A stretch of 64,000 bases of DNA from Diacronema lutheri. Lineage: Eukaryota; Haptophyta; Pavlovophyceae; Pavlovales; Pavlovaceae. Below, one piece after another: positions 46,547 to 64,000 of this stretch. The position numbers and the translations under genes were made by a program. The first letter of the stretch is position 1. The number at the start of each line of letters is the position of its first letter. The notes under the pieces are model-generated. The model saw nothing but the letters and a program-made list of their open reading frames with translations, searched no databases and was not told the origin of the DNA. The stretch covers positions 620,001 through 684,000 of the forward strand of contig JAGTXO010000015.1 in assembly GCA_019448385.1 (NCBI GenBank), read 5' to 3'.

Positions 46547-49210
46547 TCAGGCACGCGCGCGCCGTACGATGGCGGTGGATGGGTCCGAAGCGGCGTGCGG
46601 CGCGGACGTGTGTGCGTAGCCGAAGAGCGCCTCATCATCGTCCTCGTCAGCCTCGCCATCCGCCTCGTCAAACTCGCCCTCGCCCTCGCCGTCCGTCTCC
46701 TGCTGCTGCGTCTCCTGCTGCTGCTGCTGCGCACCGTTTGCCGCCGCGCTTTGCACGCCGCCCGTTCGCACGCCACAGCCGCCGGCGAGCCTTACGCCGG
46801 CCGCGGCGAGCGCCTCGGCCGCAGCGTTGGCCGCGACGGCCGCCGCACCGACTCGAACCTCCGCCCGGCGCGCGGCGAGCTCATCCTGCGCCTTGCGCTT
46901 GCGCAGCCGGTGGCCTGGGTCCGAGGTTGACCGCGCGCCGCGCAGCGCGAGTGCTGGCGCGGGCGTCTCGAGCAGGCGCGCGCGCGGCGCGGCGCGGTGC
47001 TCGGCGGCGAGAGCTGTGTGCGGCGCGGCGGGCGAGGGCGGCGCAGCGCGCAGCAGGCGCATCGCGCAAAAGGCGGCAAAGACGCGCGCAGCCGGGCCGG
47101 CGAGCAGCGTGATGCGACCGGCATGCGCGGTCTGCAAGCCGACAACCTCTTCCACCCTGCGCATCGCGGCGCGCCCGAGGCCACGCGGCGCGCGCGTGCG
47201 CATGTGCGCGTGGCCCCCGCCCGCACCGCCCCCTCCCTCGCCGCCGCTGTCGTCGTCCTCCTCCTCCTCCTCGTGCTCATCGTCGAGCGCGCTCACATCG
47301 AGTCCGAGACCGCACGGCGCGCCCGCCGGACACAGCTCTGCAAGCAGCCCGCCCAAGGCGGCGCACAGCGCCTCGGACGCGCGGCGCGCGGCGCTGTCGC
47401 CCGCGCGCGCACCGACGGCAGAGGGCCGGAGCTGCAGCGCGGCGCACGCGATGCCGGGCACAAGCTCGCATAACGATGGCGGTGCGAGGCCCGCCTCTGC
47501 GCACGCGCGCTCGAGCGGGCCAGGGGACGCCGGTGGCGGGTGCGCGCGCTCTGCGAGCGGCTCGTCGAGCAGCAGCTGCTGCTGCTGCCGCAGCTCGGCG
47601 TGCACGAGCTGCGCGGGTAGGAGCAGCGCGCTGCAGCCGATCCCGACCAGGCCCGCGTTGACCGCAGCGCGCAGCCCATTTTGAAAGCGGAGCAGCGAAG
47701 GGAAGGCCACAGGCGCAGGCGCCACAGGCTGCGCGCGGCCGTGCGGCTCGACGGGCTGCTGCTGCGGTGGCGTAGGCTGCGACGGCGCGCCCGCTGCTGT
47801 AGGCGCGGCGAGCTGCTCCTCCTCGCGCGCGAATTGCGGCGCGCCCCGCCCCACCGCGGGCCCTTCAGCAATGGCGGGTGGTGGAGGGGGTTGCGTCGGC
47901 TGCTCGGCGCCTGCCGTTGAATCGGTGGGAAGCGGCGCGAGCGGGCCGGCCGCACCGTCGCGCGCCGTCGGCTGCGCCGCCGCGCCCGCGCCGCGTGCCG
48001 CGCAGCGAGCGACCGCGGCCGCCGAATCGCCCACACGGCCCATCGCCGCCGCCGTCGCCGCCGCCGTCGCCGCCGCGTCCGCCTCAGCCGCGGCCTTGGC
48101 GGCGGCGGCGGCCTGCACAGCGTGAGCGCGCGCTGCTGCCTCCTCGTCCGCCATCGCCGCCGCGCGCCGAGCCGCCGCCGCTGCCGCCTCATCGCGCTCG
48201 CGACCCTGCCGCTGCGCATTGACGCTCGCGGCGTCGGCCGCTTCGCCGCGCGTCGCGTCGGCGTGGCGCGCGAGCGCGCGCTCGTCGGCGGCAGCGCGAC
48301 GGAGTACCTCGCGCTCAAAGGCGGCCGTGCGCTCGGCCTCGGCGGCTGCGAGCTGCTCGGCCTGCTGCCGCAGCAGCTGCGCGTGTGCTTCCGCCTGCGC
48401 CTGGGCCTGCGCCTGCGCCTGGGCCTGGGCCTGAGCCTGGGCCTGGGCCTGCGCCTGCGCCTGCTCCCGCTCCCGCCGCAGCGCCTCCGCCTCCGCCTGC
48501 GCCTCGAGCAGCGCGCGGCGCTGCGCCTCGGCGGCGGCTGCGGCAGCAGCGGCCTGCTGGTGCGCGGCCATGAGCTGGCTGTGCTGGTGCATCTGCAGGC
48601 TGTGCGCATGCTGCTGCTGCTCCGCGCCCCAGCCGCCAGCCCCCGACGCGTGGCCCCAGCCGCCGCCCGGCGCGCCCGCGTTGTGCGCCGGCTGGCCGCG
48701 GCATTCGTCCATGTCCATGCCGCTGGCAGTCAGCGGCTGCGAGCGGGCTGCTCCACCAATGCCATCTTGCACGCTGAATCCCTCGGCGTCGACGGCCTGC
48801 TGCGGCTGCAGCGCGCCTCGCCCCGCGCCACCAGCCGCGCGCTCAGGCGCCGCGCCGCCCACGCTCGGGCCTCCGTGCGCGCGCGGCGCGAGCGCGGCAA
48901 GCGCCTGCGCCTGCTGCAAGCGCGCGGCAAGATCGACAAAGCCTTTGCCCAACGCCAGCTGCGCAGCCGTCTGCCCTTTGCGCGTGAGCGCGCACGCGTC
49001 GGCGCCGCGCTCCACGAGGAGCGCGCACACGCCAAACTGGCCGGCGGCGGCGGCCCGGTGGAGGAGCGTGTGGCCCGGGTACATGCCCGAGTCCTTCACG
49101 TCGTTGACGGAGAGCGAGCCCGCATCGAGCAGCGCGCGCAGGTCGTCCACGCGCCCCGTCGCGGAGAGCGTGTGTGCGTCGATGCACCCCGCCACCCGGT
49201 GCTTCGACAT
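46547..49210 (-). CDS. Ankyrin-repeat protein with long Ala/Gln coiled coil
   Basis: 887 residues from ATG 49210; an upstream in-frame ATG at 49387 adds 59 residues of poor protein character. Two to three ankyrin repeats open the protein (DAHTLSATGRVDDLRALLDA, GHTLLHRAAAAGQFGVCALL, KGQTAAQLALGKGFVDLAAR). A Gln/Ala/Glu-rich helix follows with a pure Gln-Ala run near 48400-48460, then a Pro/Gln-rich linker. A helical block (LLRFQNGLRAAVNAGLVGIG, RRVEEVVGLQTAHAGRITLL) is next, then an acidic tract (HEEEEEDDD), a bipartite-like basic signal (HRLRKRKAQDELAARR) and a Glu/Asp-rich tail. The basic and acidic tracts suggest a nuclear scaffold or regulatory protein (inference). No introns. Confidence 0.75.
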   Translation of the reverse strand: MSKHRVAGCIDAHTLSATGRVDDLRALLDAGSLSVNDVKDSGMYPGHTLLHRAAAAGQFGVCALLVERGADACALTRKGQTAAQLALGKGFVDLAARLQQAQALAALAPRAHGGPSVGGAAPERAAGGAGRGALQPQQAVDAEGFSVQDGIGGAARSQPLTASGMDMDECRGQPAHNAGAPGGGWGHASGAGGWGAEQQQHAHSLQMHQHSQLMAAHQQAAAAAAAAEAQRRALLEAQAEAEALRREREQAQAQAQAQAQAQAQAQAQAQAQAEAHAQLLRQQAEQLAAAEAERTAAFEREVLRRAAADERALARHADATRGEAADAASVNAQRQGRERDEAAAAAARRAAAMADEEAAARAHAVQAAAAAKAAAEADAAATAAATAAAMGRVGDSAAAVARCAARGAGAAAQPTARDGAAGPLAPLPTDSTAGAEQPTQPPPPPAIAEGPAVGRGAPQFAREEEQLAAPTAAGAPSQPTPPQQQPVEPHGRAQPVAPAPVAFPSLLRFQNGLRAAVNAGLVGIGCSALLLPAQLVHAELRQQQQLLLDEPLAERAHPPPASPGPLERACAEAGLAPPSLCELVPGIACAALQLRPSAVGARAGDSAARRASEALCAALGGLLAELCPAGAPCGLGLDVSALDDEHEEEEEDDDSGGEGGGGAGGGHAHMRTRAPRGLGRAAMRRVEEVVGLQTAHAGRITLLAGPAARVFAAFCAMRLLRAAPPSPAAPHTALAAEHRAAPRARLLETPAPALALRGARSTSDPGHRLRKRKAQDELAARRAEVRVGAAAVAANAAAEALAAAGVRLAGGCGVRTGGVQSAAANGAQQQQQETQQQETDGEGEGEFDEADGEADEDDDEALFGYAHTSAPHAASDPSTAIVRRARA

Positions 49211-49607
49211 GATGGCTGCCCACCGGACAGTGCGCACACCGTGAGAGGTGAGACCAAGCTGCAGCAGACTGCGGTGGGGGCTCGGCTCGTCACCCGACGG
49301 GCCGGTGTCATGGGTGGACACTGGACAGCCTTCAATGAGCGACCCGCCGCAAGAGTGTACTGTGAGCCCGCGCAAAAACCCTGCCATGTGCGAGCAGCCT
49401 CTTCACTCGTGGTGATCGCCTCTCGCCTGTCCGTCCCGTCGCTTCCGCACGCAAGTGCGAGCAGAGCACCGACGCTCCCGCGCAATTCGCCGCCGCCGCC
49501 GTGATGCAGCCGCGCCGCCTCAGAAAAGTGCTCGACGAGGGCGGCCGGCAGCGCCGCCCTGCGCCCGCCTTGCCTCGCCGCGGACACTGTGCGCCGCGCG
49601 CTGCCGC
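49211..49607. other. 397-bp gap between two leftward genes
   Basis: Holds the 5' region of the ankyrin gene and the 3' region of the aminotransferase gene. Nothing recognisable was found apart from a GCC-type run at 49489-49502. The terminator and promoter signals it must contain are not identifiable by eye. Confidence 0.4.
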
Positions 49608-51248
49608 TCACTTTCCGCCCATCGGCACTCGCACGGCCACACCCTGCGCCTGCGCCTGCGGCGCGGCGGCGCGCGCGGCGCGCACGGCGGCCCGCGCCGC
49701 CATCAGCTGCGCGGCCGCGGCTGGCGCGTGCGCGCTGCCAAACGTGCCGAGCCGCTCGGCCGCGCGCTCGAGCGTTTCGTCCGTCTTGCAGAAGGCGACG
49801 CGCACGAGCGCCGCGCCGCGCTCGTGCTCCTCGCGCGAGAAGAAGGGGGACGCGGGGATGAGCAGCACGCCGTGCTCGATGGCGAGGTAGCGGCACAGCG
49901 CCCAATCGCGCCGCATGCTCGGCGCGGCGGCCGTCGACGCGCGCATGTACTCGTCGGGCACGCTGATCGAGGATGTCTCACCCATCGTAAAAAAGCCGCC
50001 GGCACACGGCAGCGGCCGGATCCCGCCGGCGCTCAGAGCGTCGGCGAGCGCCTCGCGCTTGCGCGCGTACTGCGCGCGCCGCCACGAGTAGTAGTCCACG
50101 AGCGGCGCGCCGTCGGCGCGCGCCGCGCCGTCGATCGCGTCGCCCGTGAGCGTGCGCACCTGCTCGCCGCCGAGCGCAAAGAGGGGTCGATCGGCGGCGT
50201 CGAGCGCGAGGGAGAGGGCCTCCTGCAGCGGCGTCGCGACGCAAAACTGCGCGAGCGGCAGATATGCTTGCATCGGCGCGATCAGCGCCGGAGGACCTAC
50301 CGCCCAGCCCACCTGCCAGCCCGTCACCGAGAAGGTTTTGCCTGGGCGCCAAGCGTACCGCCCGCGGCGGCGGATGGCGCGGCGAGTGAGCGCGCGAGCG
50401 CGCGCGAGGACGATTGACGACGCGCATGCGCGCTCACCCGCCGAGGAGACGGTGACGGTCCTGTCGTACATGGCCGGCAGCGCGGCAAAGTGGACGTGCG
50501 ACGACCCGTGGCCGTGCACCGTATATTTATACACCTCGTCACTGATCACGAGGAGGCGCGGGTGCGCGCGCACAAAGTCGGCGAGCGCGAGCATCTCGTC
50601 GCGCGAGAACACCTTGCCCGTCGGATTGTGCGGCGAGTTGAGGATGAGCACGCGCGTGCGCGCCGTGACGGCCGCGTCGAGCCGCGCCATGTCGAGGTGC
50701 CACTCGCCGCTCGCGGCGTCGAGGTCCATCGGCACGCCGACGGCGGTCGCGCCGGCCACCCGGATCTGGCCGTAGTAAAGATCAAACGTCGGCTCGATCA
50801 CGAGCACCTCGTCGCCCGGGTTGACCAGCGCCTGCAGCGTGAGGAAGAGCGCCTGCGACGCGCCGACGGTGACCGCGATCTCTGCCGTCGGGTCGATTTG
50901 GCGCTCGAGGTGTGCGGAGTAGCGGCGCGCGAGGACCGACGTGAGCGGCGGGTGGCCGGCTGTGCGCGTGTACTGGTGGCAGTTGCGTGACATGGCCTGC
51001 ATACCCGCCTCGAGCACGAACTGCGGCGGCGCCCAATCGGGGAAGCCTTGCCCGAGGTTCACCGCGCCCGTCTCGCGCGCGAGCGCGCCAAACTCGCTCC
51101 ACACCGTCGGCGCGTCGGCGCCCGCAAGCCGATGCGCCGCCTGTCCCCTCGGATGGCCGACCGGCGCCCCCGAGCTCGCCAGTCCACCGACGCCCTGCAC
51201 GAGCGCGACACCGAGTAGCCCCCGTCCACGCCAGCTGATGCGCTCCAT
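49608..51248 (-). CDS. Class I/II aminotransferase, kynurenine/glutamine transaminase type
   Basis: PLP enzyme resembling KYAT1/CCBL1, which transaminates kynurenine, glutamine or cysteine conjugates. Exons 51248..50438 and 50341..49608 join through a 96-bp GT-AG intron (in frame, stop-free) into 514 residues. Family blocks are VNLGQGFPDWAPP, VTVGASQALFLTLQALVNPG, LNSPHNPTGKVFSRDE and ISDEVYKY. The Schiff-base Lys is in SSAGKTFSVTGWQVGW, which is created by the splice junction. The first 40 residues (MERISWRGRGLLGVALVQGV) are basic and hydrophobic, compatible with a mitochondrial or plastid presequence. An AT-rich patch at 51270-51290 is a plausible promoter. Confidence 0.92.
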   Translation of the reverse strand: MERISWRGRGLLGVALVQGVGGLASSGAPVGHPRGQAAHRLAGADAPTVWSEFGALARETGAVNLGQGFPDWAPPQFVLEAGMQAMSRNCHQYTRTAGHPPLTSVLARRYSAHLERQIDPTAEIAVTVGASQALFLTLQALVNPGDEVLVIEPTFDLYYGQIRVAGATAVGVPMDLDAASGEWHLDMARLDAAVTARTRVLILNSPHNPTGKVFSRDEMLALADFVRAHPRLLVISDEVYKYTVHGHGSSHVHFAALPAMYDRTVTVSSAGERACASSIVLARARALTRRAIRRRGRYAWRPGKTFSVTGWQVGWAVGPPALIAPMQAYLPLAQFCVATPLQEALSLALDAADRPLFALGGEQVRTLTGDAIDGAARADGAPLVDYYSWRRAQYARKREALADALSAGGIRPLPCAGGFFTMGETSSISVPDEYMRASTAAAPSMRRDWALCRYLAIEHGVLLIPASPFFSREEHERGAALVRVAFCKTDETLERAAERLGTFGSAHAPAAAAQLMAARAAVRAARAAAPQAQAQGVAVRVPMGGK

Positions 51249-51765
51249 CGAAAAAAGATCGAGAATCCTCCTCTTTCCTTTTTAAATTGAAATGCGCGCA
51301 AGACTGCAGACTGGCACCGCACTCATGATCACAGCGGCCAAGATCGGCATTCGGTTCCGAGTATAGATGGTCAAGCCAAATCCGATCAGGGGCACGATCG
51401 CGCCCCGAGTGCAGCGCGGGCCGTTCGGAAGGACGTCCTTGTGAGGGAGCTCTTCGCGTTTGGCGAGCGGGGGAGCACGACGCGCAGCGTTGCTGCGGCG
51501 GCGTGCGGGCGGCGAGCAGCGGTCGGGCTGCTCGCGACGAGGCCGGAGCAGACGGCGCCGTGGCCGCCGGCGCAGGTGACGCGCGCCGACGAGCCGTAGC
51601 GAGCGTCCGTGATCCGCACGGCGGTTGGAGCGGGCCGGCTGGCGCGGCGCGCTCGGCCATGGGCGGCAGCGTGCACGGTCGTGCCGCACGCGGCACGCGT
51701 CGCCAGCCGCGCGCGACCTGTGCAGAGCCCGCAAAGCGTCGACCGCTGCGCGGCTCGGCCGTGCG
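51249..51765. other. 517-bp noncoding gap 3' of the Fanzor-containing gene
   Basis: Lies between the aminotransferase start and the stop codon of the giant Fanzor-containing gene. No ORF here looks real. Because TnpB and Fanzor guide RNAs usually overlap or follow the 3' end of the nuclease ORF, this is where a guide RNA and the element's end would be expected. No terminal inverted repeat can be assigned because the other end lies outside the window. Confidence 0.4.
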
Positions 51766-54700
51766 TCAACGCCGGCCGCGCTTCGGCCCGCGCGCGATGC
51801 CGCCGCCGGCACTGGCGCTGGCAGCTCCGCGGGCGGGGGTGCGGGCGCGAGAGCCGCCGCCGCCACCGCCGCCGCGCCCGCCGCCGTCGTCGCCACCGCC
51901 GTCGCCGCCGCCGCCTCCCCCGCCGTCATCGTCGTCGTCGCCGCCGCCGCCTCCGTCGCCGTCGCCGTCACCGTCGCCCTCCTCGCCGCCGCCGTCGCCG
52001 CTGCCGTCGTCGTCGTCGTCGTCGTCGCCCTCGTCGTCGCCCTCGTCGTCGCCGTCGCACTCGTCGTCGCAGTCGTCGCCCTCGCCGTGCACCATGCGCT
52101 CCTCACGCTCCCACACCTCGCCGCGCGCCCACCAGGCGAGCACGAGGGCAAAGCGCTCAGGCGTCGACGTGGTGTCGCGCCCGGCCGCGTGCGCCGCCAT
52201 GTCGTGCACGTCGTAGAAGATGTTGCGCGCGGCGTTGTAGTCGCGGTGCACGGGCTTCTTGCCGCCGTTGCACGCCGGGCAGATGACGAGCGCGTGCACC
52301 GTGCGCGTGCCGCCCTTTGCCACGGGCAGGCGCGGGTTCTGCGCGAGCTCCGCGCCGCAGCGCTGCAGCCTGCCGCCCTTGGCGAGCCGCGGCATCGAGC
52401 AGTGCATCGACGTGTACGGCTCGGGCACGAAGACGGCCGCGACGCCGCGCCGCCGCAGCTCGCGCAGCAGCCCCACCTGGAAGGCGGGCGGCGCGCCCTT
52501 GGGCTGCGCGCCCTTGTGGTCGCGCAGCCACTTGCCCACGCACACGAGCAGCCGGTCGCGCGTCACGCCGTCGACGCAGTGCGCCGCGATGAGCGCCTCG
52601 GCGACGCGCGCCGCGTTGGACCGCCCGCCGCTGTCGCGCCGCCAGCGCTCCTTGCGGCGCGCCGGCGCGTCGTACACGTGCTCGGCGGCGCGCTCGCGCA
52701 CCCGCGCGCTCTCGCGGTGGAAGGCGAGGAACTTGCCCTCGCCGAGCACCTTGGCGCTGTGCGCCTCGCCAAGCCGCGCCTCGTCCGCCTCCACGCTGAA
52801 CTCCTCGCCGCGCCCGTTCTTGCGCACGCGCCGCCGCGCCGCGTTGGTCTTGGCCGTCTCGCGCGCAAAGCCCGCGGCGCGCGCGCGCGCGCGCTGCGTG
52901 AACTGCCGCCAGACGGCCGCCCGCCCGACGTGCGCAGAGTAGGTGGTGATGTTGCCCATGTTCGGGTCGGCCGCGACGACGACCGCCGCCTCGACGTCGA
53001 TCGCCCGCCGCAGCTCGGAGCCGAGCGCGACGGCGATGCGCCCGTCCGGCCGGCGCCAGCGGTGCAGGACGCCCGAGCCGCCGGCCGGCGCCTGCGCCTT
53101 CGGCACGAGGACGGTCCCGACGGCGTGCACGGCGACGCCATCTGTCACCACCGACTTGACGGGCTGCCGGCCCGGGAGCGGCACGCGCGGCAGCGGCGCG
53201 AGGCCAACCCACGAGCGCCGCGCGTGCCACGGCAGATCGGCCGGCGGCCGCTCGCGCCCGGCGTAGTCGAAGACGCGGTTGGAGATGTCGAAGCGCGTCG
53301 CGAAGACCGCGTACCTGACGCGCACGTCCGACATCGGCGGGGTGAGGCCGTTTGTGCCTGTCCACTTGATCGGCTCGCCGTCGTGGTCGCGCAGGTCCAG
53401 CGCCTTGAGCCGCGCGCGCAGCTCTTTGCGCTCGTCGTCCGGGAGCGTCTCCCAGATGGCGCTCGCGGTGAGGCGCACGTTGCGCGGCACCTGCGCGCAG
53501 CGCGCGGCGCGCGAGCGCGCGGGCGCGTGACCAACCTGGCCGCGAGGCGGCGCGCACGGCGGCGGCGCGCGCGCTTGGGCGCTCGGCGGCGGCAGCGTCA
53601 GCCGCGCCTCGCGCGCACATTGTGCGTGCGCAGCGGCGCCACATTGTACCGCGGCGGCCGTCCGGTCAGCTGCGTGTGGATGTGCGCGAGCCGGCAGAGC
53701 AGCGCCTGCCCATCGGCCACGTGCTGCAGGGTGCGGATCTGCACGAGGAAGTAGCGCGTCGTGTGCCGGTCGTAGTTCCACCTTTTCGTGGGCGTGCACT
53801 TGTAGTCGATCTTGTGGAGGACCATGTCGGGCAGGTGGCGGTCGAGCGCGGCGGGGCAGCCGACGCGCGCGCCCTCCACGTCGCCGCGCAGCAGCCGCTC
53901 GCACAGCTCGCGCACGCGCGCGTTTCGCTGCATCTCGGGCAGCGCGACGAGCGCCTCGTCGCGCTCGACTGCCGCGCGGACGACGTCGCGGAGCAGCCCG
54001 TTCACGACGCGCGATGGATGCATCAGGCACGCGGTGGACACCTGCGTCGCCTCCTCCTCGAGGATGCTCTTGAGGCCCACCGCGCAGACGGGCTGGACGC
54101 CCTCGGCCATCTCGCCGACGGCGCGCGCCGTCGCCGCCTTGGTCTGCGCGGCGGCTTGCTCGGCGGGCTTGCCTCGCGGCGCTGCACCGTACGTGCTCTC
54201 GTCCTTGTTCCAGCCGATGGCCGAGAAGATCGCACGGACGGTTCCCTTGTCCATCGTGGTCGACGTGTGCACGCTGGTCGACGGGCCGCCCGACGCCGCG
54301 CCGACGGCCTGCGCGCTCGCCACCGCAGCCTCGTCGCGCACCACCTTGTTGATGACGCGGTACGCCTGTGTCGTGAGCCTGTGCACGGCCGCCGCGATGC
54401 GCCGCAGCTCCTTCCGCGCACCGGGCTGCGCCGTCACCGCCTGCGGCCCCGCGTTGAGCGTCGAGCGCTTGACCACGAAGCCCGGGAGCACGCTGCCGCG
54501 CGTGCGCGCCGTCGCGCCGCCGGCGGCGCGCGCGCTCGGCGCAGCAGGCTCGTCCACGCGCGCGCGCTCGACGCCGCGCGCGCGGGGAACGCTCGGCGCG
54601 CGCGCGCCCGCGGCGTCGCGCGCGCTCGCGGCGGCACCCGCCGCGGCGCGCTTGCCCGCGGCGCCCGACTCGCCGTGCGCGCGAAGCGGCGCCGACGCCA

Positions 54701-57700
54701 ATGCCGACGCCGCGCCCGCGCCGCCGCTGCCGCTGCCCGATACGCCCGCGCGCCGCTTCTGCTCGTCGCGCGTCTTGCGGAACTGGGCGACGAGGTCGCT
54801 GCTCACGTTGGCCTCAGGCTCCCACGTGTCGGCGCTCTCGTCGTAGCCCCGCCACCTGATCCGGAACTGGAACGTCACCTTCTTGCCCGCCTTGCGGCGC
54901 TCGTCGACGACCGCCTCGACCTCGTACGTGCGCGCCTCCTCGTCGACGCTCGCGCCCGCCGCGCTCGCGCCCGTGTCCGGCCACCCAGCGACCGTGCCGC
55001 CCAGCCTCTCGGCGGCCGCGCGCAGCTGCCGCTCGCGCTGGGCGGCCGCGGCGCCTCGCGCGACCAGCGCGGGCAGCATGCCCGCGCCGCCCGCGAGGCC
55101 GTGCGCGCCGACGCTGGCGGTCATCAGCGCGTCGAGGCACGCGAACGTTGCGAGCGCACGCGCGCCATCGTCGCCGCCGCGCGGCTGCGAGCGCACGACG
55201 GGCGATGGCCGCGGCTCCCCCTCGGCCGCGAGCAGCGGCCAGATCGCACTGGCCAGCGCGACGGCATGCGCGCCGACCGCGACGGCCACGTCCGCGTCGA
55301 GCGGCGCAAAGTCGTAGCGCACGAGCGCGGCCGGGCGCGAGTCGTCCGTCGGCCGGTCGGCGACGAGCAGCCCGACCGGGCGCGGCGGCTCGCCGGACGG
55401 CGCGGCGACGGGCACGCAGAGGAGCACGACGAGCAGGCGCGGCGTGCCGCCGAGCAGCGCGCGCGCGGCATCCGCCCCGTCGGCTCCGCCGCGCGCGGCC
55501 GCGGCGAGCAGCTCGGCCGCGCGCGTCGGGCCCAGCGCCGTGCGCGCGTCCTTGCGCGCGCGTGCGCGGGCCGTGTACGCGGCGCAGGCGTCGTCGAGCA
55601 CCGCCGCGCTGGGCGCGGTGCCAGTCGTCGCCCACGCGCGCAGCGCGTCGCGCACCCGCGTGACGATCGCCTGGTCGACCGCCGCCTCGCCGGCAGCGTG
55701 CGCCGGCGCGCACGCCGGCGGTGCGGCGGCAGGCGCGAGCGCGGGCGCGCCGTCGGCGCCGTCAACGCCGACGGCGCCGTCGGCGCGCCGCCACGCGAGC
55801 TTCGCCTCGATCTGCTGCCGGACGGCGTGGCAGTGCCGGTCGATGCCGCGCGCGTCGTCGAGCGCGGCCAGCGCGTCCTCAGCGGCGGGACGGCCGCTCG
55901 CGTCCGCGACGGCCTGCAGGCAGAGCAGCGCGGCCGCACGCGCGTTGCACGCGCTCTGCGGCTCGGGCGCGAGCGCGAGCTCGAGCTCGAGCGGCGACGC
56001 GCCTCGCGCCGCGGCGATCGCCTCCATCAGCACGTCCAACCGCTGCACCAGCGCCCTGTGCGCGTCGCGCGGCGCGCCCGTCGACGGCGCGCGCGAGCGC
56101 GTCGCCACGAGCCCGAGCGCGCGCGCCGGCGCGCCCGCCGGCGTGTGCAGCACGAGCAGCGCCGCGCCCGCCAAGCTCGCGTTGCGCGTGACGAGCGCGA
56201 AGATGCGCGTCGCCTCGTGCGCGCCCACCGACGCCCAGATCGCAGCGCGATCGGCGTCCGTCTGCGCGTCGCACAGGTCGCGCACGTCGTCCGGCGCGAG
56301 CAGCACGCCACCGCCGGCGGAGCGCGCGACGATCGCCCGCGCCTCCGCCACGAAGACGGCCTGTGGCAGGTCGGCGTGGCGCGCGTCGACGATGGCGCGC
56401 GTCGCGTGCACGCCGAGCTCCACGCCGCGGTAGAAGGCGCGCGCGTTGGCCGCGCGCGCGTGCGCCGGCCGGCCGTCCGCGTTGCGCCTCGCGCGCGCCT
56501 GCTTGCTCGTGCGCGCGAGGCCGTCGCGTGGCGGTGGCGGCAGCGTGGCGAGGAAGCGCGCGGCGGGCGGCGGCGCGCGCACGCCGCGCTGCCGCCGTGC
56601 GATGGCCGCGAGCCGCCGGCCCGCCGCGCTGCCGCCCGCGCCGACGTGCTGCCGGCGGCCGAGCGCCGCCGGTGGCGGCGGCGGCGGCGGCGCGGCGGCG
56701 GGCGGCGGCGCGACGGCGGGCGGCGGCGCGGCGGCGGGCGGTGGCGCGGCGGCGGGCGGCGGCGCGGCGGCGGGCGGCAGCGGCGGCGGCGCGGCGGCGA
56801 CGGCAGCACCAGTCGGCTTGTCCACCCACGCACCCGAGACGCTGTCCCAGGCCTTGCCCGGTGGCGCGCGCACGTGCGGCCGCGGGTGGCGGGCTCGAGC
56901 GGCGGGGGGCGGGCGGCCGGCGCGCCAGTCGAAGACAGGTGCAACCGTGGCGGCAGGCGCCGAGTGCAGCGCGTCGGTCACAGAGCGCGTGGTGCGCGCG
57001 GCGACCGTGGCACGCCTGGCGGGCGGGCGGTGAGCAGCGCCCGCCGGCGCGCCGGCGGGCGCGGCAGCCGGTGCGCCGGCGGGCGCGGCCGCCTCGAGCC
57101 CGGCGGAGGCGCCGCGCTTGCGCTTGCGCGTGCCGCCGCGCGTGCGCCTGCGCGCGCGCCCGCCGCGCGCCCGCTCGGCCTGCGCGTCGCCAGCCGCGTC
57201 GCCGGCCGCGTCGCCGCGCCGCACGTAGACGACCGCGAACGCCTCCTCGCCGGTCCCGTCGACGCCGCCGCGCGCGCGGCGCAGGACCGACCGCCACTGC
57301 AGCCGCCGCGCGCGGCCGGGCTCGCACGCAAACCAGCGCCCACCGCGCCTGACGACGGCCACAAAGTCGTCGTCGCGCCGCCCGCGCCGGCGCGTGCGCA
57401 GCAGCACGCACTGCACGTCGAGCCAGCCCTCGTGCCAGTCGGCCGTGCTGGGGGCGACGCGAATCGACTGCGGGAGCTCGACGCCAAAGCCGGCGAGCCG
57501 CACGATGTGCGCGACGATGACGCTCGAAATGGCGGGGGCGCTCGGCGGCTCGCCCGCTGCAGCGAGCCCCGCCCCGCCCCAGTGCTCACGCGTGACGCAA
57601 TCCGCGTCCTCGACGTGCACGTGCGCCACGCTCGCGCCGAGCTGGTGCAGCAACGCGCAGATGTCGGCGTCGACCGTCCTCTCCTCCTCGGCCGCCTCGG

Positions 57701-60700
57701 CCGTGCCGCGGGCGGCGGCGTCGCCTGCCGGCTGCCCGAGGTACGCGATCGCCCGCTCGACGGCCGCGCCCTCCGCACGCGCTGCGCTGGCGATCGCCGC
57801 ATTGCCGACGGGCGCGCGCAGCGCCGCGATCGCGTCTTGCAACGCCGTCGCGTCGCCCGTCGCCGCCGCCGCCGCCACCGCCGCCGCGCTCGCGGTGCCG
57901 TGCGCGACGGCGTGCAGCGCGGCGGCGCGCGCGGCGGGGATGCGCCCGTCCAGCGCGAGCACGAGCGGCGGCCCGGCCGGCGTCTGCTGCCGCCGGTGCC
58001 GCCGGCTTGCAGCCGGGTGGTCGGCGCGCGCGCGCTCGAGCCGCGCGCGCCGCTCGACGACGCGCGCCCAGAAGGCCTGCACCCTCGGCTGCGCGAATGC
58101 AAGCCAGCCGACGCCGCGCGTCACGACGTGCACGACGATCCGGTCCTCGTGCCTGAGGTACTGCACGTAGAGCGCTTTGCGCACGCCGAGGACGTGCATG
58201 CCGAGCTGCAGCTGATCGCGGTGCGGCTGCGGCGGCCCGTCCTCGTGCGCCGTGGCGCCCGCCTTGGTGAGCGTCTTCACCTCGACGAGGACCTGCTCGT
58301 TGTTTTCGGGGAGGATGGCGAGCCCGTCCGGCGAGAAGGCGAACGGCGCGCTCTTGTCGTGCGGGTCCGCACGCACCATCGGCAGGTTGCACACGACGGT
58401 GATGCCGTACGCGGCCGCCAGCTTGCGCAGCGCGACGGCCTCGCCGAGGATGCCCGCGGTCGTCGCCTTGGTCCGCACCTCGCGCCGCCGCCGGTGCACG
58501 TACTCGTCGGTGAGCGTCTCGTGCGCGACGCCGGCGTTGTCGTTCACGACGTCGCCAACCTTGCTGCCCGTGACCTCCTCCCATCGCTCGTCGTGCCAGC
58601 GCGGGCTGCGCTGCGCGGGCGCGCCCGCGCCGACGGCGTCGAGCACGCGGCGCAGCGCTGTGCCGTCGGGCGCAGCAGGCACGCGCGCGCGGTCCGGGGC
58701 CTCGCGAGCGTCGAGGACGCAGCCCGTAGTGGAATCTTGGGGTAGGTCGAGCTTGCTCGCCTCGCCGTAGCGGCTCTCCAGCTGGCGCGGTGCGTCGGCA
58801 GGGCCGCCGTCCGTGCGCGCACCCGACGCGCCCGCCAGTGCACGGGGCGCAGCGTCCGGGGCGCCCGCCGCGCCCGCGCCGCCGCCAATCGCGCCGGCGC
58901 ACGCGCGCGCCGCGACCTGCGGACGGCCAGCCGCAGGGGCCTCGTCCGCTCGGCCGGCCGCTGCGTCGGCCGTCCGCTTGGCCACCTCGCGCACGTCTCC
59001 GAGCGCGAGCGTGGCTGGCGCCGTCCAGCTCCCGTTGCGTTTGTCCCAAAATTTGAGCAGCCCGCCAAGGAAGGGCGTGCCCGTCGGGCAGTCCTCGGGC
59101 ACCTCCGCCAGGATCGCGTCGACGCGCAGCGCGGCCGCCACATCGCAAAACGCGCGCGCGGCGCGCGCCATCCGCTCGGCGCGCGCGCCGCCGTCGTCCG
59201 CCGCGCGGCGGATGGCGTGGCTCACGTGCGCGACGCGGAGCGAGACGACGGCGTGCGCCGGCGCGCCGGCGCCCGTGCCGAGCGTGTGCCGCCGGATGGC
59301 CAGCTGCCCATCGCCCATGCGCGGCGGCAGCGACGCGCACGCCGCGACGGTCGTCGTGCCGGCCGCGCTGTCGCACAGCCAGCTCGCCTCGCCGCCGCCC
59401 GCAAACTCAAAGGTCGCGAAGCCCTCGCGGCCGAAAAGCGCGACGAAGTGGTCGAGCACCGCCTTGTTGATCGCGCGCGCCGCCGGCCGCGTCGATGCGC
59501 CGCGGGCAGCGCCACTCGCCGCGCCGCGCGCATCGCTGCACGTCGCAGGGCAGGTGCAGCCGGACGCGCGCACGCCGTCCGACCGCGTCCGCGGCAGCTC
59601 GAGCTCGCGCACCTTGGGGCAGAACCAGAGCGGGTTGGACGCCTCGAGGCACAGCACGACGAGCCGCCCGTCCGTGCCGGCCAGCGCGCGCGCGTCGCGC
59701 AGCAGCTCGACGGCGAGCTCGGACGTCGCCGCGTGCACCGCCGGCTCGCCCGTCGCGCGGTCGGGCGGGAAGAGGCCGCCGCCGACGAGCGGGCTGGGGC
59801 GGCGACCGAGCATCACGAGCAGCGGCGGCGGCGGCGTCTGCGGCGCCTGCTGCCCGACCGCAGCCGCCGTCAGCCCGGCCAGGTCGGAGCTCGTGCGGAG
59901 GGCCTTGAGCGCGACGCGCGAGCCGGTGCCCGCCTGCTCGGAAAACGTGGCGAGCATGGCGCACGTGCTCGCCCTCGCGCCGCACTGCCAGCTGACGCGC
60001 GCGAGGAGGCCTTCCAGCGTGTCGTTTTCGCGCGGCCGCGTGACCGCGTCGAGCGCCGCCGGGCCGAGCTGGAGGCTGCCGGGCGTGACGCACAGCACCG
60101 CCTCGTGGTAGGCGCGCAGCAGCTCCCTCGGCAGCTGCTCGGCGGGCGTCGCCGCCTGCCCGCCCACCCACCGTGCACCGTGGCCGCCGTCGCCCGCGCC
60201 CGCGAGCCGGACCGCCGGCCCGCCCGTGATCGCCGAGGTCGGTGGCGTGCCGAGCGCGTCGACGAGCGCGCGCACGGGCGCGACACGCCTGCGCGCAGCG
60301 TCCGCGCCGACGGCGAGCGCGGCGATCTGAGCGCCCTCCCATGCGCGCTCCCTCGCGTCGTCCCGCGCGGCCGCCGGCGCGGCGCCCGGCCGCGCGCCGT
60401 GCGGCACCGCGCACGCCGCCGTGACGACCTCCGCGCGCGCGCCGGCGGCGTCGGGCGCGTGCAGCTGCGCGAGCGCGCCAAAGAGCGCGGCGGCCGAGCG
60501 GTAGCGGCCGTGCGCCGCGACGAGCGCGTAGAGCACGCGCAGCGCGGCCACGCCCGCCTGGTCGGGCGCGTCGCCAGCGATTTGCTCGACCTCCCACGTG
60601 CGCGTGGGCGGCGGGCTGCCGTCGGCCGGGTCCGGACGCAGCGCCCACGCGCGCTCGACGATCGCGTTAAACACGCCGTGCGCGGCGCCCTCGTCAAACT

Positions 60701-62307
60701 CGGCGGCGCCCGCCGCGTGCGCGCACCACCCGTGCACGCGCGACGTGGGCGCATCCACGGCGCGCTGCACGACGAGCACCGCCGGCCGGTCGACGCAGCC
60801 GAGGCTCACCGCCGCGTGCTTGCCCTCGAGCAGCGCCGCCGCCGCAGCCTCGACCAAGGCGTCATCAGGCGCGTCGCCGACGGCGACGGCACAGCCGTCG
60901 TCGTACTCGGCCTGCATCGCGGCGACGCACGACGCGACAAAGTCGCCGCCCGCGGCCGCCGCGTGTCGCGCCGCCAGCATCCGGCGCGCGATGGCAAGCC
61001 AGACGTACTCGGCCGGCGCGCGCGCGGCGCGCGCGCGAGGCGCGCCGGCCGCGCCGCGTGCGCCCGCGCGTGCGCCTCCAGCGGCCGCAACGGCCGAGGC
61101 GGCTGGAGCGGCGGTGAGCGTGCGCCGCGCGCGCTTCGCCGGCCGCGTGATGGGCGATGCACCCGCCATCGCACCGCCCGCAGCAGCCGGTGCGGCCGCC
61201 ACAGCGCCCGCCGCAACGCCGCTCGTCACGACGCCCGTGGCGGGCGGCGCGGCGTCGGACACGGCCGCCTCGACGGGCGTCGCGCAACTACCGCCAGCGG
61301 TCGCGGACGCGCCCGGCGACGCGTCGGCGAGGAGGTGGCGCAGCACGCCGCGCGCGAGCGCGACTCGCACGGCGAGCGTCAGCGCGCGCAGGCGGTCGGA
61401 AGGCGAGGCGTCGCGCTCGGCGTCGGCGGACGTGGCGGCAGCAGGCGGGGCGGCGGGCGGCACGGCGGCGGACTGGGCGGCCGCCGGCGCAACCCCGTCG
61501 GCCTTGGCCAGCCAGACGAGCCCGGCGACTGCGAGCACGACGCTGTACGCGCCGACATCGTCACCCGCAACGCGCGCCAGCCGGGCGTGGGCGTCGGCCT
61601 CGGACACGGCGACGCGGAAGAGCACGTCGTCGCGGGCAGCTTGCTCGGCAAACTGACGCAGCTGCTTGGCCATCGTCACGCCGGCGACGGACGCCTCGCC
61701 CGCCTCTGCCTCGACCTGCTCGTCCTGGCCGATGGCGGACGCGCCGGCCTCGGCGCCAGCGTCGAGTGTCCGGCGGCGCTCGAGGGCAAAGCCACGCACA
61801 CAGACGCTCTGGAGGCCGCCGAGCGCGCCCGCCTTCTCGTGCAGCGCGCACGACAGCTCGACCACCGAGTCCACGCGCGTCGCGGCGGCGCCCCCCCGCT
61901 CGCCGCGCGTGGCCGCGCGCACGACGAACACCGTGAATTGCGCGCGCTTCGCCGCGCGCGCCGACGCGCACGCGTGCTTCAGGAGCCGGCAAAGCGCGGG
62001 CCTTTGCGCCGCTGCGCCCCGCGTGCACAGCAGCAGTTGGCCGCGCTCGTCGCCCAGCTCCTGCTCGACGGCGGCCTCGAGCGCGTCGTCCGTCAAATCG
62101 CCGTGCTCCGTCGAGGCGAGCGCGCGCGCAGCCGCGAGCGCCAGCTCGCCTGCGCCCGCGCGCCGCCGGCGGCGCGCACCGGCGGGCGCGTGCGGCGCCG
62201 ACGCGTGTGACGACGCCGCCGCGTCCGCGCGCGCACACGCGGCGCGCAACGCCTCACGCGCCGAGGCGGCCGCGCGCGCCCTGGGCGCGAGCTTCAAGAA
62301 CGTGCGC

Positions 62308-62379
<72 letters not shown>

Positions 62380-63929
62380 TCGCCCGCGTCGCCGGCCGGC
62401 GGCGGCGGTGGCGGCGGTGACGGCGCGGCCACGGCGGCGGCAGCAGCGGCGGCGGCGGCGGTGGCGGCGGCGGCGGCGCCCAGCGCGGGCGGCGGCGGCG
62501 TGGCGGCGGCGGTGGCGGCGGCGGTGACGCCAGCGGCGGCCTTGGCGACGCGCGTCTGCGGCGGCGCTTCGGCGCGATCGGGGCTGCCCCCGCCACGCAC
62601 CGCGCTCGTGCCCGCGCAGACGCCGCCCGGCGCACGATCGCTGGCCGCGCCGGTCAGCGCGACGCGGAGGCGCTCGCCGACAGCGTACATGTCCGCCACG
62701 CTGAACGTGCGCGGCGCGGACGAGCAGCCCGCCGCGGCGAGCGCGTCGTTGAGCGCGCCCACTATCGCGAGGCCGCACGTCGCGCCACGCTGCGCCGCCT
62801 CGTCGAGCAGCCGCGCGCGGCGCACGCGCGAAATGTCGAGACCCGCCGCGTGCAGCGTGGCAGTTATCGCCGTGGCGAGCACGAGCGCCCGCCTGCAGGG
62901 CGACGCGAGCGTGTCGACGAGCACCGCGTCGTAGCGACGCTCGCCCGCGCGCGCGACGCGCACAAGGCGCAACGCGGTGAAATGGCCGGAGGCGAGCTGC
63001 GCGCCGTCGTCACCGCCCGCGCCGCCGCGCTCGTCCGACGGGCTCCACACGCCGATGACAGCCTGCGTCGTCGCCTCGCTGCGCAGGCGGTGCAGCAGCG
63101 CGGCGCGCTCGGCGCCGTCCTGGAACACCGCGGGTTGCGCGGCGAGCGGCACGTGGCAGACATGCCCGCCGCCGGCCTGCCCGTGCACGCGCAGCACGAC
63201 CTCGCAGCACGCGTCGACGGTTGAGGCGAGCATGTCGCCGCTGGCGATGCGCTCCACCTCTGCCTGCGGGAGGCCGGCGCTCGCGGCGGCGGAGGCCAGC
63301 CGGCGCGCAGCCGCGTCGCCCGCCCACGCAAGCAGCGCCGAGTTGGCGGGTTGGAGGGGAAGCTCAAGGGCGGCTGGTTCGGTGGCGGTAGCCTCGTTGG
63401 CAACGGGCACGTTGGCGGTGCGCACGTTGGCGGCGGGCGCGGCGGCGATGGCTGGTGGGGCGGAGGACACGCCCGCGGCGGCAGGCGCGGACGCGACAGC
63501 GGCAGCGGCTAGCGGGGCGGGGAAAACGCCGTCGGTGGCTGGCGCGGAGGCGAGTGCAGGAGCAACTAGTGGGGCGGGAAAATCGGCGGCAGGCGCGAAG
63601 GCGGATGCAGCAGCGGCTAGCGCGGCGGGGAAAACACCGTCGGCGGCAGGCGCGAAGGCGGATGCAGGAGCGCCCAGTGGGGCGCAGAAAACACCGTCGG
63701 CGGCAGGCGCGAAGGCGACAGCAGCAGCGGCCAGCGGAGCGGAGGCGCAGGGCCACGCGCGCGCCAGCCGTGCAAGCCCAAGCCGCGCGCGAGCGACGCA
63801 CGCGCCGATGGCCGAGGCGGCGGCGCAGGCCACGACGTGGCCTGGCACCGGTGTGGCCAGCCGCTCGCGGGTGTGCACGTCGAGCCGCGCCCCACGCCAA
63901 GAGCGGCGGCGCGCTGAACGGAGGCGCAC
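51766..63929 (-). CDS. Giant fusion: ULP1-like protease, YqaJ nuclease, chromodomain, Fanzor nuclease (5' end outside window or unresolved)
   Basis: One frame is open from about 63915 to 53619. A 128-bp GT-AG intron (53618..53491) joins PLRTHN to VPRNVRL, and exon 2 runs to a TGA at 51766. The whole is about 4,000 residues. Order: Ala-rich repeats; ULP1/SENP-like protease (63230-62730; His 62984, Asp 62915, Gln 62792, Cys 62777); several look-alike modules without a full triad; YqaJ/lambda-exonuclease domain (58640-58100: SPRWHDERWEEVTGS, AFSPDGLAI, VLVEVKTL); further modules; chromodomain (54933-54790: FRIRWRGYDESADTWEPEAN); Fanzor region with RuvC-I Asp (AADPNMGN, 52968), PEPYTSMHC, a four-Cys zinc finger and RuvC-III Asp (HRDYNAARNI, 52242). 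The tail is Gly/Asp-rich. Basic signals (KRARR, RKRKRG) suggest nuclear action. The open frame's first residue is GTG-encoded, so upstream exons are likely. Confidence 0.75.
51830..52075. repeat. GCC/GTC triplet-rich tract (Gly/Asp tail)
   Basis: Interrupted CCG and GTC triplet runs encode alternating poly-Gly and poly-Asp blocks at the C-terminus of the Fanzor part. Such acidic/Gly tails are absent from typical TnpB proteins. Confidence 0.8.
56690..56800. repeat. Ala-Pro 18-bp repeat array
   Basis: GGCGCGGCGGCGGGCGGC-type units recur about six times, encoding PPPAAA repeats on the minus strand. They form a flexible linker between the YqaJ-like region and a downstream module. Confidence 0.75.
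62308..62379. repeat. 24 uninterrupted GCG triplets
   Basis: A 72-bp perfect GCG array, followed by interrupted copies to about 62525, gives long poly-Ala tracts just C-terminal of the ULP1-like protease. It is the longest pure microsatellite in the window. Confidence 0.9.
63460..63745. repeat. Tandem ~57-66 bp coding repeat at the N-terminal side of the giant gene
   Basis: Units around GGGGAAAACACCGTCGGCGG recur four to five times (near 63520, 63630, 63680) with changes, encoding SAFAPAADGVFPAPLAAA-type peptides. Unit length varies because some copies lack DGVF. Confidence 0.75.
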
Positions 63930-64000
63930 GACCCCGATCGATCCGCCCGCGCACGCGCGCGCCGGCTCAGTGTGGCCAACGCGCGCCGCTATGCAAGGCG

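Follow-up and report, generated by a model that had tools for sequence, protein, structure and literature searches.

Fanzors are RNA-guided nucleases of eukaryotic transposons. The characterised members, such as SpuFz1 and GtFz1, are stand-alone nucleases. In algae, Fanzor1 has been described in the Helitron2 elements CRe-1, CRe-2 and CRe-3 of Chlamydomonas (Bao and Jurka 2013, PMC3627910). According to the available text of that study, these elements are non-autonomous, have intact 3' ends and clear asymmetric terminal inverted repeats (ATIRs), and follow TTTT at their targets; insertions with a full 5' end show no target-site duplication (TSD), whereas 5'-truncated copies often carry TSDs of 7–19 bp. 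The locus considered here lies in a 64,000-nucleotide stretch of the haptophyte Diacronema lutheri (contig JAGTXO010000015.1, positions 620,001 to 684,000, hereafter the window). Its minus strand carries a single open frame, at most about 4,900 codons long and divided over two exons, in which a YqaJ-type exonuclease domain, a chromodomain and a Fanzor are joined. This fusion gene is the last, most 3' gene of a mobile element that measures about 31 kb when complete. The 3' end of the element is exact, its 5' end varies slightly, and about 200 nearly identical copies are present. As to the nature of this recent, high-copy element, we consider the chances about even that it is a giant Helitron-related transposon carrying a Fanzor.

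The frame of the fusion gene is long but split by an intron. On the minus strand, an open reading frame (ORF) at 53598–63998 stays open for 3,466 codons and continues beyond the right end of the window; once the next 10 kb of the contig are included, it amounts to 4,352 codons (extended 53601–66656, where "extended" means the window numbering carried on beyond 64000, extended 66656 being C29:686656). A different frame immediately upstream stops at extended 66657. The first in-frame ATG of the long frame, at extended 65468, would give by arithmetic a protein of 4,524 residues. The Fanzor part is completed by a second minus-strand ORF of 1,015 codons (51766–54813), and the gene is laid out as follows.

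53619–64000, minus strand: exon 1, window part, from the ORF and third-position GC; its ORF extends to extended 66656
63476–63742, minus strand: 57-bp tandem repeats (19 amino acids) within the frame
53491–53618, minus strand: intron of 128 bp, GTGCGC...GCAG, with an identical junction in the annotated protein KFE25_006464
51766–53490, minus strand: exon 2 including the stop, Fanzor C-terminal half, with a Pfam TNB match above cut-off and invariant D, E and RD

Removal of this intron joins ...PLRTHN to VPRNVRL in frame, and the annotated D. lutheri protein KFE25_006464 reads ...PLRTHNVPRNVRL across that junction. A 2-bp insertion in one other copy (L083) is also located inside the intron. KFE25_006464 itself, on another contig (C69), is a SAM-domain protein with an N-terminus built of Fanzor-gene exons, a chimeric host gene made from an element fragment.

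The length of the ORF alone proves little, because at about 79% GC the antisense ORFs are also long (1,757 and 1,154 amino acids). Stops are rare at such a composition, so that two or more separate genes might look like one. Such a split would fit the failure to score any fused relative among 2,327 and 8,000 candidates, as well as the gene model of KFE25_006464, which begins inside the Fanzor part, though it is a fragment. Third-position GC, computed in 450-base blocks, speaks against it: between 63,371 and about 53.5 kb the signal is highest in the fusion frame, with the exception of one repeat-rich block (56.6–57.1 kb), and then favours the exon-2 frame from about 53.5 to 52.1 kb. A single frame is thus marked over nearly the whole YqaJ–chromodomain–Fanzor stretch; the signal is mixed across 63.4–66.5 kb (extended). 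The splice also matches the frames of the chromodomain exon and of the RuvC exon, and the gaps between copies are all in frame. Taken with these observations, separate genes look quite unlikely. Two further copies of about 10 kb each (L082 and L083) show neither frameshift nor stop in the first ORF, with four gaps each in exon 1, all multiples of 3 and all within repeats. This integrity adds weakly to the case, since the gaps sit in repeats and shifted frames gained just 0–3 stops. For the Fanzor C-terminal piece (544 codons), 79 of the 80 genomic copies scored are stop-free.

The domains were identified by profile and structure-database searches, by motif reading and, for the catalytic residues of the Fanzor, by alignment with two metagenomic relatives (P0002 and P0003).

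62724–63251, minus strand: candidate ULP1/C48-like region, H...D...Q...C motif by eye
58047–58619, minus strand: YqaJ / lambda-exonuclease domain, PHROG RecE-like 2e-14, TIGR03033 1.6e-5, Pfam YqaJ 0.024
54774–54926, minus strand: chromodomain, HP1/CDY-like, Pfam 3.9e-12, PDB 2dnt 5.4e-9, HP1 4.5e-7
53619–54458, minus strand: Fanzor N-terminal part at the end of exon 1, adjoining exon 2, probably REC/WED-like
52966–52968, minus strand: RuvC D, invariant in the alignment
52420–52422, minus strand: alternative E, invariant in the alignment
52240–52242, minus strand: D codon of the RD motif, R and D invariant in the alignment

The chromodomain assignment is firm by its profile and structure matches. 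The Y/W/Y residues of what we take, from HP1, to be the cage are in place by eye. The PHROGs and NCBIfam profile matches, together with SPDG, VEVK and Q motifs read by eye, indicate a PD-(D/E)XK exonuclease core in the YqaJ domain, the TIGR03033 and Pfam YqaJ matches falling under their curated cut-offs; the sequence search for solved structures returned no relative of this domain. The functions of both domains are those predicted from their families. In phages, the proteins of the lambda exonuclease/RecE/YqaJ family act as a separate recombination protein; the present domain shares their profile and motifs but is fused. Chromodomain long terminal repeat (LTR) retrotransposons similarly carry a chromodomain in a mobile-element polyprotein (PMC6338049, as far as its available text goes), but neither reverse transcriptase nor integrase was matched by Pfam in the fusion gene.

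For the Fanzor, RuvC D, alternative E and RD are all found in the three-sequence alignment, the alternative E standing six residues ahead of the first zinc cysteine, and this arrangement before the zinc finger is the one described for Fanzors (available part of PMC10711439). Three cysteines of the putative C4 zinc finger are invariant among the three aligned sequences, but the first cysteine pair departs from C-x-x-C spacing in the alignment. Pfam Cas12f1-like_TNB scores 27.4 bits against a cut-off of 26.3, the NCBIfam guided_TnpB match reaches just 0.023, and the PDB search is weak, with Cas12f1 as best nuclease match (E 0.31, not top-ranked). The N-terminal part has no profile match of its own and no relative among 8,000 scored candidates. 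At RuvC-I, the window copy reads DPN, and the two relatives read DTG and DPG. The DPG of this position has been described as near exclusive in Fanzors (PMC10711439, in its available text); DPN is taken as a departure and not as an exclusion, because the source says "near exclusively" and because SpuFz1 coordinates its metal through D383 and N385 (PMC10432273, available part), which resembles DPN. The RuvC D, E and D are shared with SpuFz1, GtFz1 and other characterised Fanzors, yet here the nuclease forms the last part of a protein about 4,500 amino acids long. A protein search with the Fanzor gave four matches among 7,999 scored candidates: a near-identical piece (P0001), KFE25_006464 (P0004), and the two relatives P0002 (45% identity, covering 89% of the query) and P0003 (43% identity, covering 61%).

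The preliminary description, drawn from the letters of the window, had proposed one gene on one strand, in a single frame plus one spliced exon, fusing a ULP1-like protease, a YqaJ-type exonuclease, a chromodomain and a Fanzor. The ORFs, third-position GC and the KFE25_006464 junction bear out the gene structure, and the PHROGs, NCBIfam, Pfam and PDB matches, together with the Fanzor motif, bear out the last three domains in cis. For the protease, the H, D, Q and C motif stands by eye, but no match was obtained in Pfam, PHROGs or NCBIfam profiles, nor any solved relative in the PDB, and a single-sequence structure model was of no use (mean predicted local distance difference test score, pLDDT, 40). 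By its motif alone, this protease is plausible. What that description lacked was the context of the element of about 31 kb: its roughly 200 copies and, upstream of the fusion gene, a helicase of Helitron type and a USP-like stretch.

Other copies, which had been suggested as a means to define the element ends, do so. Those with unrelated flanks stop at the same base, window position 51361, and the host DNA begins at 51360.

51361–64000, minus strand: window part of the element; the copy spans C29:671361–703878 (32.5 kb)
51361–51374, minus strand: 3' terminus of the element, ...GACCATCTATAC
51389–51406, minus strand: near-palindrome GGGGCGCGATCGTGCCCC, by eye, 28 nt from the 3' end, a Helitron-like position
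51361–51765, minus strand: 405-nt 3' region, from the Fanzor stop to the element end, by position

The 5' end of the window copy, at C29:703878, is beyond the window, and this copy holds a Copia-like insertion (reverse-transcriptase ORF L010:5887–9003, plus strand, extended 79887–83003, RVT_2 E 1.1e-29). Pattern counts in the genome, allowing up to one mismatch, give 215 3' ends, 235 5' ends, 215 YqaJ sites and 191 helicase Walker A sites, with 0 for the reversed-pattern controls. All 80 copies of the Fanzor end scored, out of 450 candidates, are 99–100% identical. Among the matches listed on contigs C1–C43 (88 3' ends and 98 5' ends), 59 of the 3' ends could be paired, the partner being the closest 5' end of like strand at a distance of up to 40 kb. 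These paired copies fall into size classes: 24 at 30.95–31.08 kb, 13 at 21.4–22.2 kb, 8 at 29.1–29.4 kb, 7 at 26.0–26.9 kb and 7 others. The YqaJ site is inside 56 of the 59; two of the other three are on C43, outside the YqaJ matches listed, and one is a pattern miss. From their mean length of 27.96 kb, the 215 copies are estimated at about 6.0 Mb, or 13.8% of the 43.5-Mb genome, assuming that unpaired copies are alike. Several contigs (C1, C12, C3, C8, C14, C32, C33) end no more than one base away from the element 3' end, and C32 starts at its 5' end. A telomere-capping role was considered for this and rejected; since TTAGGG telomeres are present at the ends of C15, C29 and C30, we regard such contig ends as places where the assembly broke at a long repeat. 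Copy numbers close to contig ends are uncertain, the assembly having broken at the element.

The relation to Helitrons comes from the helicase gene upstream of the fusion gene. Element genes beyond the window were examined in three loci (L017, L009 and L010), where the larger ORFs were scanned. The helicase matches Pfam PIF1 (1.8e-24) and Pif1_2B (6.2e-13), and its best PDB match is the Helitron transposase Helraiser (E 4e-25, 92 bits), far ahead of the cellular PIF1 chains (6e-6, 28 bits). Helraiser is again best for the Walker A exon (E 1.2e-6). A PIF1-like helicase of the RepHel type is thus present, and Helitrons are kept as the nearest relative because of this match. The element has further features in common with Helitrons of the Helraiser (RepHel) type, namely the subterminal near-palindrome at the 3' end and the lack of a clear TSD. 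The part preceding the helicase presumably resembles a single-strand-binding protein. A USP-like stretch upstream gives a UCH match of 4e-4, below cut-off, and a 1,346-codon upstream frame has no match in Pfam, PHROGs, NCBIfam or the PDB. The 5' part of the element (L017:1–3200) contains inverted repeats and antisense ORFs that look by eye like captured host gene fragments, with no Pfam match.

The closest described counterparts are the CRe elements of Chlamydomonas, which are likewise algal elements of Helitron type with a Fanzor and intact 3' ends. Of the 25 flank pairs taken in D. lutheri, two are cut by contig ends and 23 can be tested for target duplication; 22 of these have no shared run of at least 6 bases adjoining both ends, as in the full-length CRe insertions. 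The remaining pair carries a 13-bp duplication, and one of the 22 (C36) shares 5 bases near both ends. The ATIRs, clear in the CRe elements, are weak here, with 8 of 10 bases matching between the ends by eye, without a significance test. The D. lutheri element reaches about 31 kb at full length, and its Fanzor shares one protein with YqaJ and a chromodomain, whereas the word "YqaJ" occurs 0 times in the available text of PMC3627910. Replitrons were also considered; they have an HUH endonuclease, a size of 0.9–4 kb and TSDs of 2–8 bp according to the available part of a review, and were rejected on all three grounds (no HUH found, about 31 kb, no clear TSD).

At the near-palindrome GGGGCGCGATCGTGCCCC, the RNA centroid shows a 7-bp hairpin, but the DNA fold of the 3' end preferred a different structure (z -1.0, with 30 of 200 shuffles equally good). 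The 5' end folds with z -1.8, and 18-nt palindromes are found near both ends.

Several observations weigh against a Helitron-related transposon. No HUH Rep domain was found in the scanned ORFs, including the part before the helicase, though a very divergent Rep is possible, and none of 7 HUH-like motifs is followed by Y..K. Membership among canonical Helitrons was rejected on this ground. Helitron_like_N has one match in the whole genome (L041, C63:35738–36019), at a locus that blastn does not connect with the element. The tblastx matches between them are short and scattered (best E 5e-8) and are put down to composition; tblastn with the frames of that locus gives a best E of 0.32. The ends differ from the Helitron TC...CTRR and insertion between A and T, with CTATATAC... 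at the 5' end, ...CTATAC at the 3' end and varied flanks. The Walker A site is inside 35 of the 59 paired copies; the other 24, the window copy among these, have nevertheless been amplified, and therefore move in trans or otherwise. The fold of the 405-nt 3' region does not stand out from those of shuffled sequences (z -0.39), and no purifying selection is visible in exon 1, where the ratio of replacement to silent substitution rates (dN/dS) between copies is about 1.16, against 0.84–1.33 in shifted frames.

The missing Rep and the unusual ends could also mean that the element is not Helitron-related. In such a scheme, an unrecognised recombinase, tyrosine or other, would move a circular form through a short core, CTATAC/CTATATAC, and the helicase would have been captured. 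The 3' core CTATAC is indeed fixed in the copies read and resembles the prevailing 5' core: among 36 distinct 5' junctions, the 8 nt ahead of GGCGCGG are CTATATAC in 21 and CTATATAG in 5, and the remaining 10 differ from both, part of these junctions being biased towards ...AC by the query used to collect the loci. At occupied repeat sites, however, the position within one and the same target after which the core stands varies between insertions, as would be expected rather of a core carried by the element; a target-derived 5' core was judged less likely for this reason. Six of the 36 junctions, read by eye, are located at the end of another repeat, TAAGCGYCGTTAGTAT. No integrase or transposase family was matched in the ORFs scanned either, and we regard a recombinase of this kind as somewhat unlikely. 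The repeat TAAGCGYCGTTAGTAT has 486 exact sites genome-wide, with a fixed left side and a variable right flank in the ten occurrences read (L104–L111 among the loci), and has the look of a 3' terminus belonging to a different high-copy mobile family; several of the present elements sit at it.

Comparison between copies bears on whether the joined domains matter for transposition at all. Fanzor, YqaJ and chromodomain could be passengers, captured domains with little function there, as the exon 1 ratio and the finding of relatives for the Fanzor part only would allow. That ratio comes from 98 substitutions in each of L082 and L083 against the window, and neither of these two copies has a frameshift or a stop there; since the true frame does not stand out from the shifted ones, dN/dS was rejected as proof of constraint on exon 1. 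Against L082, the chromodomain shows no substitution, and all 4 substitutions in YqaJ are replacements; replacement and silent changes number 8 and 2 in the ULP1-like part, and 8 and 1 in the Fanzor N-terminal part. Exon 2 behaves differently, with dN/dS of 0.42, 0.51 and 0.47 against three copies (20–23 substitutions each), compared with 1.26 to 2.31 in shifted frames, while the exon 1 portion seen in the same three copies gives 1.14, 1.14 and 1.51. The frame is kept, yet amino-acid constraint is visible in exon 2 only. With the catalytic residues intact and the YqaJ site in nearly all paired copies, the passenger view is, in our judgement, unlikely. The gene set of helicase, YqaJ, proteases and Fanzor is also, we presume, reminiscent of large DNA viruses, of which the locus might hold endogenous remains. 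This is very unlikely, given that the ends are exact in about 200 copies; the ORFs scanned match no family of capsid proteins or DNA polymerases, and viral contigs searched with Fanzor, helicase and YqaJ pieces yielded no confirmed relative.

Within the window, an aminotransferase class I/II gene lies at 49609–51281 (minus strand, Pfam 3e-49); the element 3' end is about 80 bp upstream of its ORF, on the same strand, and the insertion may therefore affect its promoter. Further along, 46547–49402 (minus strand) encodes an ankyrin-repeat protein with long low-complexity stretches.

If the element is Helitron-related, a mode of action can be sketched. It would copy itself replicatively with its own helicase. 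The 405-nt 3' region, which has no Rfam match, is where the scaffold of a guide (omega) RNA would be expected, with the guide in the 3' host flank; scaffolds at such a position, and guides read from the 3' flank, have been published for Fanzors (PMC10432273, in its available part). As in TnpB/Fanzor systems, a guide RNA would then be made from the element 3' end with its guide from the host flank, and the Fanzor might thereby cleave target or sister sites that are empty. Resection of the break by the YqaJ exonuclease would then let repair copy the element in. The chromodomain may tether the protein to methylated chromatin, and the ULP1-like and USP-like parts could trim the large protein or strip SUMO/ubiquitin. 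The self-contained system that finds chromatin, cuts and resects, as already imagined in the preliminary description, is coherent as a hypothesis only. In its boldest form, a Helitron-derived giant element would have lost its HUH nickase and would move by RNA-guided copy-in, a Fanzor break at a guide- or chromatin-chosen site being followed by YqaJ resection, with its own helicase and a putative single-stranded-DNA-binding protein driving the copying. This form is highly speculative, and we think it improbable as it stands.

Fanzors in Helitrons were already known; what would be new here is the fusion, together with a gene set without a recognisable Rep. No description of a YqaJ–chromodomain–Fanzor fusion or of such a Rep-less set was met in the mostly open-access literature on Fanzor, YqaJ, Helitron, haptophytes and Diacronema, judged by titles and the openings of abstracts. 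The D. lutheri genome paper (PMC8379373), in its available part, contains no word beginning with "transpos" and describes no such element. The genome has been called streamlined, and the element accounts by estimate for about one seventh of it. Because the Fanzor is fused to a predicted 5'–3' exonuclease and a chromatin reader in a recent, high-copy element, its role in transposition becomes directly testable. If RNA-guided copy-in proved true, an RNA-guided nuclease would be part of a eukaryotic transposition machine.

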